Shown: piece by piece, positions 37,309 through 42,605 of the stretch | Numbering within the stretch: the first letter of the stretch is position 1 | How the letters are laid out: the number at the start of each line of letters is the position of its first letter | NCBI RefSeq assembly: GCF_000802385.1 | Contig: NZ_JTDN01000003.1 | Location: 62,001 to 126,000, forward strand | DNA: 64,000 nt | Direction: 5' to 3' | DNA from: Croceibacterium mercuriale | Lineage (GTDB): Bacteria > Pseudomonadota > Alphaproteobacteria > Sphingomonadales > Sphingomonadaceae | Program-made: the position numbers and the translations under genes | Notes under the pieces: model-generated | The model's database searches: none | Told to the model about the DNA's origin: nothing | Seen by the model: only the letters and a program-made list of their open reading frames with translations

Positions 37309-38209
37309 GAGCCCGTTTCGTAAGTGGCTGCAGGGGGTTGAGCATCGCGGGTCGGCGTGGTTCGGGAAGGTATCTGGCGCTATCTCGGAAACGCCATGTG
37401 GACCCGCGACACTCGACGGCAGCATAGTTGCAATCCTCTCCAATATCCAAGCAGCCTCACGGACGCCGAATGGCGGGTGGTAGCCTCGTATCTGCCTGCA
37501 GGGCCGGCTAGAGGTCGGCCACGGCGCTGGCCTTGGCGAGGCCTGTTTGATGCCATCCTGTTCGTATTGCGGACCGGCGCGCCGTGGCGGTGCCTGCTGC
37601 CTGGCTTTCCGCCTTGGCAGACGGTCTATTGTTGGTTCGCCCGGTTGCGAGATCAAGACTTCTTCCAAAGCCTGAACCATGCGCTGGTGCTCGCCGACCG
37701 CAACCGGCAACGCCGGGACGCGGCGCCTTCAGCAGCCGTCATCGACAGCCAGTCGGTCAAGACCACCGAAGCCGGCGGGCCGCGCGGCTACGACGCTGGC
37801 AAGAAAGTCATGGGGCGTAAGCGGCACGCGATGGTCGATACCGATGGTCGTGCCTTGGAGCTTTTGGTCCATCCTGGCGACGTCCAAGACCGCGACGGAG
37901 CGGTCCCGCTGCTTAGGCAATCTCGCAGCCGTCACCCCTTTGTCGAACGCGCCTTTGCCGATAGCGCCACAACTCGGATCGCGTCGCCGAAGCCACAGTG
38001 ATCGACATCCAGATCGTCCGAGATCGGCTTCACCGTCCATCCAAGGCGCTGGGTGGTCGAACGAACCTTTGCATGGATGGGCCGCAATCTCCGCTTGGCC
38101 AATGACTTCGAGGCAACCATCGGCTCCGCCACCGCATTCCTCTACGCAGCCGCCGCCATGGTCCTCGTCAGGCGCATCGCACGATCAGCATGACTTATGA
38201 AATGGACCC
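37309..38209 (+). mobile_element. IS5-family element, copy B (one main frameshift)
   Basis: About 900 bases bounded by GAGCCCGTTTCGTAAGT at 37309 and ACTTATGAAATGGACCC at 38209, which are imperfect inverted repeats. It is the same type as the element at 3857-4763 but in the opposite orientation and better preserved. The transposase is described separately. Confidence 0.82.
37396..38194 (+). pseudogene. IS5-family transposase, frameshifted near the C-terminus
   Basis: The frame 37396-38001 covers the N-terminus (SSLTDAEWRVVASYLPAGPA), RTGAPWRCLLPGFPPWQTVY, VIDSQSVKTTEAGGPRGYDA and GKKVMGRKRHAMVDTDGRAL. It then ends in an out-of-frame tail after FADSA. The remainder, [20 protein letters not shown] and the closing [14 protein letters not shown], lies in another frame to 38194. 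A small deletion around 37970-38035 explains the break; the part that normally links the two pieces is shortened. The DDE domain is therefore incomplete. Confidence 0.8.
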
Positions 38210-39215: not shown

Positions 39216-39960
39216 ATCAGCCCATTCCTCACTCCATCTCCAGCCTGTCCCGTGTCATTAAGATGAGCGGCAAGACAGGGGGTTGGTGGCCGAAGCAGGG
39301 AGGGGCCTTGGTTGGCTGGCATCCGTGTCCAACTGCTATCAAGGCTGATCCGGTGGTGGACGGACCGGCTGCTTTTCAGGCTAAACGGGTGGAGAGCGGT
39401 CCGACCGCTTTCGGGCAGCCGATCGTATCCTGATCGCCCACGGTGCCGAGAAGCTGGAAACCCGCACCGATCCCGCCATGACGCGAGAGTGGATGGCCGG
39501 CAGAGCTTTCCCGACTTGGACTATGTCGTTCAGTGATCACAGAGCCGAGCCGTTGGACACACAGTTGCTCTTCTCGCAAAGAAGAATGCAGTCTTGTTAG
39601 CGCCAGCTCAATAAGTTCGCTTGAAATATTTTCTGAGGGTTAGTGATATCGGCTTCCGACCCGCTGATGCGTCCTGACTACTGAACTAGGATGCCTCAAG
39701 GAAGCCGAGGGGCCTCATGAACAATCGACCGGAGTTGGGAACGGCGAGGAAGCGTTGAACGTCCACAATGGGGTCTTGGAGTTTGGGTCTGTCGGCTGAA
39801 CTAAGGTCAACTTACCCGCGATCGACGCTTGGAACCTGGTTGTCCGCTGACGGGCCCAAGACTGGTGTTTGTCACAAGGAAAGACACCGAAGCATCGCCA
39901 AGTAGGTTGATCCGTGTACACGCATGTCCTACATCGTGTCACAGATTGGAGTCGAGGCAA
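39216..39960. other. Gene-poor stretch upstream of the PIN-patatin operon
   Basis: About 745 bases. A plus-strand stretch near 39420-39600 (ILIAHGAEKLETRTDPAMTR and on) has weak coding character but no family. The promoter of the operon at 39961 should lie at the right end; no clear -35/-10 pair was identified. Confidence 0.3.
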
Positions 39961-40385
39961 TGGCGACGAACAGCAAGATAGCGGACGACGCAGACGATGG
40001 GGTGACGCTCGGCACCTTGATCGACCGGCTTGGCAAAGGGGCCGCGGAGGAGTTCTTCGGGCGGATCGACGGCTCTTTGCGAACGGGCGATGTCGTTCAC
40101 GGGACCAACGTGCGAGAATCCCGCGTCGCGTTTAGCAAGGCGCGGCTCGACGGGCATGCGCAACTCGTCGTGCCCGGCCGGGCGTCCGATGGACGTCGTG
40201 GGGCTGCTGACATCGGCGACAGCGTTGTGGTCATCAAGATGGACGACTTCCAAGCTGTCGTGCGTGCCGGTCGCGACGAGTTCGATTGGGGCAGCGCCTT
40301 CGCTCCGCGCAGCGGGCTTGAGGCCGCAACGTCTGGCGCTTCTATCGTGCGTGGCGCGCGCGGCGCACGCCTTCTGCGCGCCTGA
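39961..40385 (+). CDS. Putative antitoxin or partner protein of the PIN-patatin operon
   Basis: A 140-residue acidic/basic-mixed protein of no recognised family. The middle part (GDVVHGTNVRESRVAFSKAR; IGDSVVVIKMDDFQAVVRAG) recalls the end of Phd/YefM-type antitoxins (a VxI...DF.A.V pattern), but the match is weak. The C-terminus is Arg/Ala/Gly-rich. ATG 39961 is chosen because it has a GAGG nearby; the frame is open from 39924. Its stop overlaps the PIN gene start (TGATG), so the two are translated together, which is the usual layout of an antitoxin-toxin pair. Confidence 0.5.
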
Positions 40386-40828
40386 TGTACCTGCTGGATT
40401 CTCAGCAGGCCATGGACTTGCTGAGCAGGGATACGGGCCGGCCGATCTTCCGGTGGGTCGAAGCAACCAAGCCGGGGCGCAATGACCTCTTCGTCAGTGT
40501 GCTCTCCCTAGGGCAAATCGCTGACACCATCGAGCACATGGCGCCGGGACAGCGCAATCACTGGCGCCGCCTACTGCAAGAGGGACGCCGCGAACTCGAG
40601 GAAGCTGGGAGCTTGATCGACATCGACTTGCCGATCGTCGACGCCTGGCAGACAAACCTGCGCGGTGACCTGCTCGCCGATATCGATGGCGCGCATGAGG
40701 ACCTCCCCGAGGATGATCGGCTGATTGTCGCCACCGCGATCGCTCGCAACTACACGCTTGTCACGGCAAGCGCGGAGGTCATCGACAGAATCGCCGAGCG
40801 AACGTCTTTGACGATCATGGAGCCGTGA
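40385..40828 (+). CDS. PIN-domain protein (VapC-like)
   Basis: A 147-residue PIN-fold protein; the family cleaves RNA, often tRNA, as toxins. It starts MYLLDSQQAMDLL, with Asp5 in the first acidic position. PEDDRLIVATAIARNYTLVT carries the third acidic position (Asp111) and the family's usual beta-strand. At the second position, where VapC proteins have Glu in a TLGEI-type motif, this one has SLGQI (Gln44), which may weaken or alter metal binding. Overlaps both neighbours (TGATG upstream, GTGA downstream). Probably toxin or effector of the operon, or a catalytically altered sensor. Confidence 0.75.
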   Translation: MYLLDSQQAMDLLSRDTGRPIFRWVEATKPGRNDLFVSVLSLGQIADTIEHMAPGQRNHWRRLLQEGRRELEEAGSLIDIDLPIVDAWQTNLRGDLLADIDGAHEDLPEDDRLIVATAIARNYTLVTASAEVIDRIAERTSLTIMEP

Positions 40829-41823
40829 GCGGACGCCAACTGATCGCTGGCACCCTGCCAAGAGCGGAGCGGCGAGGGCGCGTCGAACGCCATCTGCTGG
40901 CCCTGTCGGGCGGCGGCTATCGCGGACTGTTCACCGCAACCGTTCTGGCGCGGCTGGAGGACGAGATAGGCGGCGTTTCCGTTGCTCGCCGCTTCGACAT
41001 GGTGGCAGGCACATCCATCGGCGGCATCCTTGCCATCGGATTGGCGTGCGGCGTTCCTGGCGCAAGCCTGGCTGCAGTACTACGCGGTCATGCGCCGGCG
41101 ATCTTTCGGCCAAGGCCGGTCACCTTCGGAGGATTGGTAGGCGCTCGCTACGGGAGTGCCGGACTGGCAAAGGCAATCACGACTGCGCTGACGCCATCGA
41201 TGGCCCAGCGGCCATTCCGCGAGATCCCCGCTCCGTTGATCATCTGCGCCATAGACGAGCTGACCAGCGCACCGCGGATCTTCCGCACTGACGCCGCAAG
41301 CGGCGGCCAGGGTGATGACGTCCCTACCATCGACGTGGCACTCGCGACCTCCGCCGCACCGACTTACTTTCCGCCGCACAGGATAGACGGGCGAAACCAT
41401 GTGGACGGCGGGCTGATCGCAAACGCTCCTGATATGCTCCTGCTCACAGAAGCCATCCGCCTGTACGGCTCGTCTGTCGAGGAGTGCCACCTGCTGAGCG
41501 TCGGCACGGCAGGCAGCCCCCGGCTAGGACGGGTGACAGGTTCACCGGGCAAGTTCGGCTGGGCCGCGCGGCACGGACTTATCGACCTCATCATGTCAGC
41601 GCAGGAGGTCCTTGCACTTCGTCAGGCCGAAGCGCTTGGCCCCGGTACCTTCATGCGCATCGACGCAGAGCCACCGCAGCCGATAGCGCTCGACACCGTG
41701 GACACACCCACAACCGAGCTTCTCGTGACTCTGGCCCATCAAGCGGTCGACAAGGTGAAGGGAACGCGGGCGGAGAAAGTGCGCAGGTTCCTTGCGCATG
41801 TTCCGGCCCGGGAAGCACGGTAA
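40825..41823 (+). CDS. Patatin-like phospholipase
   Basis: A 332-residue lipid hydrolase. The oxyanion loop is LSGGGYRG near residue 28, the nucleophile elbow VAGTSIGG puts the catalytic Ser at residue 64, and NHVDGGLIANAP supplies the Asp at residue 194; all parts of the Ser-Asp dyad are present. Size and motifs resemble the CapV/patatin phospholipases that degrade membranes in CBASS and related defence systems, but no cyclase is next to it. It begins at GTG 40825 and overlaps the PIN gene by 4 bases, so the PIN protein and phospholipase are co-produced. Confidence 0.85.
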   Translation: MSGRQLIAGTLPRAERRGRVERHLLALSGGGYRGLFTATVLARLEDEIGGVSVARRFDMVAGTSIGGILAIGLACGVPGASLAAVLRGHAPAIFRPRPVTFGGLVGARYGSAGLAKAITTALTPSMAQRPFREIPAPLIICAIDELTSAPRIFRTDAASGGQGDDVPTIDVALATSAAPTYFPPHRIDGRNHVDGGLIANAPDMLLLTEAIRLYGSSVEECHLLSVGTAGSPRLGRVTGSPGKFGWAARHGLIDLIMSAQEVLALRQAEALGPGTFMRIDAEPPQPIALDTVDTPTTELLVTLAHQAVDKVKGTRAEKVRRFLAHVPAREAR

Positions 41824-41926: not shown

Positions 41927-41968
41927 CCATCAGCGGCACTTTACCCGCCGGTAAAGTGCCGCTGATGG
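41927..41968. repeat. 42-bp perfect palindrome (19-bp arms, 4-base loop)
   Basis: Left arm CCATCAGCGGCACTTTACC (41927-41945), loop CGCC, right arm the exact complement (41950-41968). It lies 104 bases after the patatin stop and 65 before the next gene. No run of T follows, so it is not an ordinary intrinsic terminator on the plus strand; a bidirectional terminator, protein-binding site or recombination/replication site are alternatives. Confidence 0.85.
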
Positions 41969-42032
41969 TTAAACGGTGGGTCGGCGCAATTTGGGGATTC
42001 ACGGCCGAGTCCGGCTGTGCTTGATATGTTCC

Positions 42033-42605
42033 ATGATCCAGCCCGATCTCTTCCAGCTTGATGAGCCCGGCCAGGCAACTAAGCCCGACGCACAGCCTCA
42101 TCCGACCACCCCTCCAAACCTGCCCGCAATTCTCGAGCGACTAGCAACAACCTGTGAGCGGCCACGTTACAGCTTCATGGTGCTGAACCTGATTGCTCAG
42201 GCGAGCGCTGTCTCCGGCAAGGCCGGCCCCTACATCGAGCACGAGGATCAGCGCCTGCCAGTGCGGGACTGGTTGTGGGCGGCGCTTTCACCAGTCGGCC
42301 GGCGCGAGCACCATCGCCTCGCGATGGTCGAGCGCGCCCGACGCGATCTCGCCGGGGCGGGACGACTGCCGGCCGATCCAGCTCCACGCGAGGCCGCCGT
42401 CACGGCCGAGGTGCAACGCCGACTCCAGCACTCGGGACGGACCAATGTTAGCCGCGCCGTCTCTGAACTTGTACGGGCAGGCCTGGTACAGCGCCATTAT
42501 CAGGGCTTCCGCGTCGACCATGTCAATCGCGGGGCGCAACGGCACGCCGTATACACCATCGCCCGGGAGGTACGTCTCGCCTTGGCCAACGCACGGCAAG
42601 CGTAA
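42033..42605 (+). CDS. Hypothetical protein with C-terminal winged-helix part
   Basis: A 190-residue protein. The N-terminal 40 residues are Pro-rich. A middle helical part (RYSFMVLNLIAQASAVSGKA) precedes a winged-helix-like region: VQRRLQHSGRTNVSRAVSEL, VRAGLVQRHYQGFRVDHVNR, RHAVYTIAREV, with a probable recognition helix at NVSRAVSELVRAG. ATG 42033 is at MIQPDLFQLDEP; an upstream Met at 41976 would lie next to the palindrome. Its place just before transfer genes suggests a plasmid regulator, which is an inference. Confidence 0.55.
   Translation: MIQPDLFQLDEPGQATKPDAQPHPTTPPNLPAILERLATTCERPRYSFMVLNLIAQASAVSGKAGPYIEHEDQRLPVRDWLWAALSPVGRREHHRLAMVERARRDLAGAGRLPADPAPREAAVTAEVQRRLQHSGRTNVSRAVSELVRAGLVQRHYQGFRVDHVNRGAQRHAVYTIAREVRLALANARQA

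Follow-up and report, generated by a model that had tools for sequence, protein, structure and literature searches.

CapV, the phospholipase of CBASS, belongs to the same patatin family as the phospholipase of the three-gene module analyzed here, in which the catalytic motifs are intact. However, no cyclase was found in the module loci, their phospholipases form a separate clade, five residues that are invariant in cyclase-linked relatives are largely lost, and the enzyme is presumably under the control of a toxin-antitoxin (TA) type pair. Type II TA systems of the Phd-VapC, FitAB and VapBC kinds have in common with the module the VapC fold and, if gene 1 is indeed Phd-like, the antitoxin-toxin order with an overlap, whereas in the module the toxin-like protein has no ribonuclease site, the putative antitoxin has approximately 40 extra N-terminal residues, and a third gene for a likely toxic enzyme is added. 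In the excerpted text of PMC13092281, the DefensePredictor system DS-2 also places a phospholipase in a defense operon but keeps its cyclases (cGAS and a diadenylate cyclase), DS-3 and DS-5 resemble the module in having a PIN domain in a defense operon but require an active PIN, and no Phd-pseudoPIN-patatin trio appears. A further point of comparison is the inactive long pAgo systems, whose effectors are separate; a PADLOC pAgo_II gene and a Cas4-like nuclease gene are found beside six modules, whereas 14 other modules and the one in the window, by which we mean the whole 64,000-nucleotide stretch of Croceibacterium mercuriale DNA that was analyzed, have no pAgo nearby. The words patatin, phospholipase and VapC are absent from PMC10620215, and no description of a PIN/Phd module paired with a patatin was found in the open-license PMC full texts, which were judged on titles and the starts of abstracts and which leave preprints and most subscription papers outside. 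The parts are known, and their combination into a trio, in which a pseudo-toxin sits between the antitoxin and the effector, appears to be new.

In the window, three plus-strand genes occupy positions 39960-41823, with overlaps of 1 base between genes 1 and 2 and of 4 bases between genes 2 and 3, which confirms the overlapping arrangement described in the original prediction. Gene 1 (39960..40385, 141 aa) encodes a putative Phd/YefM-like, antitoxin-type protein with an N-terminal extension before its Phd-like core, as judged from the family profile and from sub-cut-off PF02604 matches in homologues. Gene 2 (40385..40828, 147 aa) encodes a VapC-fold protein that is classed as a pseudo-PIN from its fold and from the alignment of the active site, and gene 3 (40825..41823, 332 aa) encodes a CapV-family patatin phospholipase on the basis of NF041079, PADLOC and CapV relatives in the PDB. 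The module is carried on a 171-kb contig whose F-type transfer genes are similar to those of sphingomonad plasmids; the C. mercuriale module is plasmid-borne. No promoter, terminator or operator was recognized in the window. Upstream of the module, at 37357-38001, is part of an IS4/IS5-type transposase (DUF4096, DDE_Tnp_1).

The original prediction had treated the genes as one coupled unit, and we searched for the three-gene order elsewhere. Among plasmid phospholipases, the closest ones (38-43% identity) are preceded by two small genes without a name and have no cyclase, while the controls had cyclase operons. Gene 1 or gene 2 of the window as a single query gave almost no matches in plasmids or genomes, and the module was seen only via its phospholipase. 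We scanned genomes with a phospholipase alignment and analyzed the best 80 of 542 relatives by HMM and by reading the upstream frames, with HMMs for genes 1 and 2 that had been made from the same loci; gene 1 of L052, L055, L059 and L106 was located by eye or with an iterated HMM. Among these 80 loci, the module is present in 24, a cyclase gene in 37 and neither of them in 19, and the figure of 24/80 comes from a ranking of the loci by likeness to the window. The 24 include seven identical sphingomonad copies, and together with L024, L027 and the window they give 21 distinct modules, of which 20 are complete and one (L044) is truncated by the contig end before gene 1. By record title, the hosts are Proteobacteria of the alpha, beta and gamma classes as well as two MAGs of Acidobacteria, and several of the modules are, like that of the window, located on plasmids. 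An unbiased class sample of 385 genomes contained the module once, in the genome of the window, and of the 30 phospholipase loci read there, the 29 others had no genes 1-2 within a distance of 1.5 kb; the family sample had the module in 3 of 199. The module is rare. None of the 54 phospholipase loci in IMG/VR has gene 1 or gene 2, and one gene 2 query had no match in the phage records.

In a tree of 86 distinct phospholipase sequences (phospholipase HMM, E<=1e-60), the 21 module proteins fall on one branch with a support of 99/98. When seven long-branch rows (four viral and three actinobacterial sequences) were left out, the module label required 1 change, with a support of 100/100, and this was recovered in 100% of 200 bootstrap trees. 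The Phd-VapC-like pair is absent from every compared phospholipase outside the module clade. An accidental neighborhood was ruled out: both partners are present in 20/20 complete loci, and these fall in one phospholipase clade. The occurrence of the phospholipase without its partners, which the original prediction had named as the sign of an accidental link, was thus not seen within the clade, although 56 of the best 80 loci in the wider CapV family are without the pair. The gene order and tight junctions are kept in 20/20 complete modules with all frames intact; with start codons picked near the junctions, genes 1-2 are separated by -14 to +10 nt and genes 2-3 by -8 to +14 nt, and the latter junction is a 4-base overlap in 12 of the 20. 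For L052-L059, the single unsaturated pair (five other pairs had a dS >1 or were not computable), dN/dS was about 0.16, 0.16 and 0.19 for genes 1, 2 and 3. Purifying selection acts on all three genes. The tree distances correlate at 0.79 between genes 1 and 2, 0.56 between genes 2 and 3 and 0.38 between genes 1 and 3 (Mantel p 0.0005 each), a ranking that is compatible with gene 2 as the middle partner, while shared descent alone could produce the correlations.

The window gene 1 protein itself has no Pfam, NCBIfam or PADLOC family match. The profile of the gene 1 family (A5) has 10 PDB matches at E<=1 (E 0.0028-0.8), of which 9 are named Phd, YefM or antitoxin and 1 is a hypothetical protein, and PF02604 is found below its cut-off in 8 of 10 gene 1 homologues but not in the window protein. 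The structure model of gene 1 is weak (pLDDT 65.7), and its five best Foldseek matches are Phd/YefM or TA chains (E 0.07-0.22). These matches tentatively suggest that the gene 1 product is an antitoxin-type, Phd/YefM-like protein, which agrees with the antitoxin proposed for the first gene in the original prediction. In 18/18 module gene 1 proteins, 35-58 residues (median 40) precede the Phd-like core; ordinary Phd proteins have 5-18 residues there (median 5.5), as counted from the nearest Met in 18 of the 19 compared. The gene 1 and gene 2 profiles also retrieve ordinary adjacent Phd-VapC pairs without a phospholipase in alphaproteobacteria; the gene 2 profile matched in 19/19 inspected loci of this kind, and the gene 1 profile matched beside it in most. 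An ordinary Phd-VapC pair is therefore likely, as judged from these profiles, to be the ancestor of genes 1-2.

Gene 2 has a VapC/PIN fold, although 7 of 10 gene 2 homologues have no Pfam PIN match. The window protein retains Asp5 and Asp111, has Gln44 where Glu is expected, as had been read from the sequence in the original prediction, and lacks the C-terminal Asn/Asp. The catalytic Glu is present in 0/21 module gene 2 proteins versus 23/23 ordinary VapCs, and each of the two catalytic Asp residues is present in 2/21 (the window and its nearest relative L028) versus 23/23; since the ordinary VapCs were chosen by a motif containing the first Asp (although this motif removed no sequence), only the counts of Glu and of the second Asp are unbiased. 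At the position of the second Asp, 5 further modules have Glu, and 6 have an Asp one residue earlier. In the pocket, Gln stands in place of Asn in 16 of the 21. The gene 2 product thus seems, from these alignments, to be a pseudo-toxin in which the ribonuclease site is lost while the fold is kept under selection, and the RNA-cutting PIN toxin of the original prediction was not borne out. Because the window and L028 proteins keep two acidic residues, they may have residual activity. An ordinary VapBC was ruled out, as the PIN active site is gone. In L021 and L023, the annotated start of gene 2 cuts off the first PIN strand.

The gene 3 product scores 229.3 bits against NF041079 (the NCBIfam equivalog for the CBASS phospholipase, cut-off 200), matches the PADLOC CBASS phospholipase effector at 1.2e-70, and also matches solved CapV structures in the PDB. 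Its catalytic dyad Ser64-Asp194 is intact, as the original prediction had stated, and the Gly-rich loop, the GxSxG Ser and the DGG Asp are present in 21/21 module phospholipases. In the excerpt of PMC12802263, the S62A change abolished the activity of Vibrio CapV. Lys154, Thr155, His157, Asp163 and His208 are each present in 42/42 cyclase-linked relatives and His270 in 40/42, whereas the counts in the 21 modules are 0 for Lys154, 4 for Thr155, 0 for His157, 1 for Asp163, 0 for His208 and 0 for His270; the window protein retains Thr155 alone. The CBASS-associated residues may form the pocket that binds the cyclic nucleotide. The residue pattern tracks the clade rather than an adjacent cyclase, since the first five residues are kept in sixteen relatives without a visible adjacent cyclase (9 + 6 + L050). 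Fifteen of these CapV-like proteins (L080, L084, L089-L094, L097, L099-L104; 15/15 at five positions) may be orphan effectors or under another control.

No HMM match to a cyclase, E1 (Cap2) or JAB (Cap3) was found in 24/24 module loci of the genome scan (the cyclase HMM was built from two cyclases), and the SMODS cyclase family has no match in the window's genome, in line with the missing cyclase of the original prediction. Ordinary CBASS was ruled out, as there is no cyclase and the CBASS-associated residues are lost. Because members of the clade have neither a cyclase nor these residues, the NCBI name 'CBASS cGAMP-activated phospholipase' (records under L020, L021 and L023) is probably wrong for the module clade, and the label would be corrected for this clade. 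The idea of a patatin effector as in CBASS holds for the family, which is that of CapV, and fails for the residues common to cyclase-linked CapV, which are gone. Taken together, these results support the original prediction in part, namely for a conserved unit with an antitoxin-like gene 1 and a CapV-like gene 3, and do not support an RNA-cutting PIN toxin.

A pAgo gene adjoins 6 of the 21 distinct modules (L029-L034), with PADLOC pAgo_II matches in the five that were scanned (L030-L034) and 37% identity to the L031 protein for L029. A Cas4-like nuclease gene and an HTH gene are beside all six (PADLOC/Pfam for L031 and L032, blastp for the rest); this operon lies at about 6.9-12.2 kb in L029, L030, L031, L033 and L034 and at 1.3-5.0 kb in L032, where it is on the opposite side of the module and the patatin is outside the clade of the other five pAgo-linked ones. 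Five pAgo loci have an extra protein of ~380-410 aa, with no Pfam match in the three scanned; the copy in L031 has a HELAH motif, which is HExxH-like and metalloprotease-type. No trace of the pAgo-operon genes (tblastn, E<=1e-5) was found near the other 15 distinct modules including the window, in flanks of a few kb and on contigs of which some are short, and there is no Piwi match in the window's genome. The neighboring pAgos are presumably of the long-B type; in the excerpt of PMC6299218, long-B pAgo proteins are all without the catalytic tetrad. With the pAgo-operon genes excluded, a PADLOC scan of 90 of the 150 neighbor ORFs around modules matched 26 families (e.g., PD-T7-1, HmaB, RmrA, PD-T7-5 and PD-Lambda-4). 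The control consisted of 87 ORFs near orphan phospholipases (a random draw of 90 out of 139, minus three very long ones), which matched 41 families (e.g., MTase_II, RmrA, LeoA and E1-E2), and there was no clear excess of defense genes over the control when families rather than proteins were counted. The 31 window ORFs gave no further PADLOC match. By analogy with the CapV family and from the pAgo neighbor in 6/21, the module may have a role in defense.

We propose, with a probability of roughly 55%, that the operon is a TA-derived switch for a membrane-damaging, cyclase-independent phospholipase, in which the dead toxin serves as an adaptor; the module is probably an undescribed self-destruct switch. 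The sequences show that a pair of the Phd-VapC type and a patatin of the CapV family have stayed together in a compact unit. According to the model, the Phd-like protein would still associate with the dead VapC in the manner of a TA complex, and this VapC would also contact the patatin and either hold it inactive or load it, which leaves room for an inhibitor or an activator role. Phage take-over, stress or plasmid loss could then remove or alter the labile Phd-like protein, and the patatin, freed or activated, would hydrolyze membrane phospholipids until the cell stops. The outcome, with no cyclic-nucleotide signal involved, would be abortive infection or plasmid addiction.

Other readings were weighed against this switch. 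An active VapC ribonuclease could be encoded together with the patatin as a second toxin, with gene 1 neutralizing one or both, as the PIN fold of gene 2, the Phd-like gene 1 and the retention of Asp5 and Asp111 by the window and L028 proteins would allow. We consider such a two-toxin operon very unlikely, since Glu is missing in 21/21 modules and both Asp residues in 19/21, whereas 23/23 ordinary VapCs retain all three; moreover, in the excerpt of PMC13092281, DS-3 and DS-5 lose defense upon mutation of PIN catalytic residues, which indicates that genuine PIN effectors keep them. It is unlikely that the patatin answers a cyclic nucleotide from a cyclase elsewhere while genes 1-2 only control expression: Lys154, His157 and His208 are found in 0/21 and Asp163 in 1/21 modules versus 42/42 cyclase-linked relatives (if these residues have the proposed pocket role), and SMODS was not found in the window's genome. 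Gene 3 nevertheless exceeds the cut-off of the NCBIfam CBASS lipase equivalog, and effectors with no cyclase next to them may exist, given the sixteen relatives in which the CBASS-associated residues are kept although no adjacent cyclase is visible.

The pAgo_II, Cas4-like nuclease and HTH genes beside L029-L034 would also fit a module that acts as the effector arm of an Argonaute defense, triggered by the neighboring, catalytically inactive pAgo. This is highly doubtful, since flanks of a few kb around the other 15 modules showed no such genes, the window's genome has no Piwi match, and the pAgo already comes with a nuclease partner. A function in plasmid or island addiction (post-segregational killing) or in lipid housekeeping, unrelated to phage, is in keeping with the location of the window and several relatives on plasmids, with the TA origin, and with the absence of the module from the examined phage records and IMG/VR loci. 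However, the nearest functional relatives are anti-phage effectors, and a TA-derived regulator suits a toxic product better than a housekeeping one, which makes a function of this kind unlikely.

A further step from the TA-derived switch, which we hold only tentatively, is that the TA pair is itself the sensor: the remodeled pocket of the pseudo-enzyme might bind the Phd-like protein or an infection signal such as RNA, and relay its state to a CapV-type phospholipase freed from cyclic-nucleotide control, which would make the module a distinct class of immune or addiction switch. If the TA-derived switch is correct, a TA pair with a dead toxin has been recycled to control a killing enzyme of another kind, and CapV-type phospholipases have departed from cyclic-nucleotide signaling. 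Under the more tentative sensor reading, the module would contain, to our knowledge, the first pseudo-toxin adaptor that directly gates a separate membrane-lysing effector, and in some lineages it would be Argonaute-coupled.

Two features beside the module recur on Sphingobium plasmids. A palindrome, ACTTTACC..GGTAAAGT, recognized in the sequence at 41938..41957 (no strand assigned), lies outside the module, between it and the next plasmid gene, and a similar palindrome is beside the module in Sphingobium plasmids. The module adjoins the same plasmid gene in the window (41976-42605) and in L020 (2273-3004), which encodes a winged-helix-like protein that is 48% identical between the two. Since the plasmid gene and the palindrome are common although the modules themselves are very different, the site next to the transfer genes is perhaps a cargo hotspot. 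The Sphingobium modules are then followed by a second, unrelated PIN protein, PF16289 PIN_12 (L035, 7015-8076; L020, 5012-6076).
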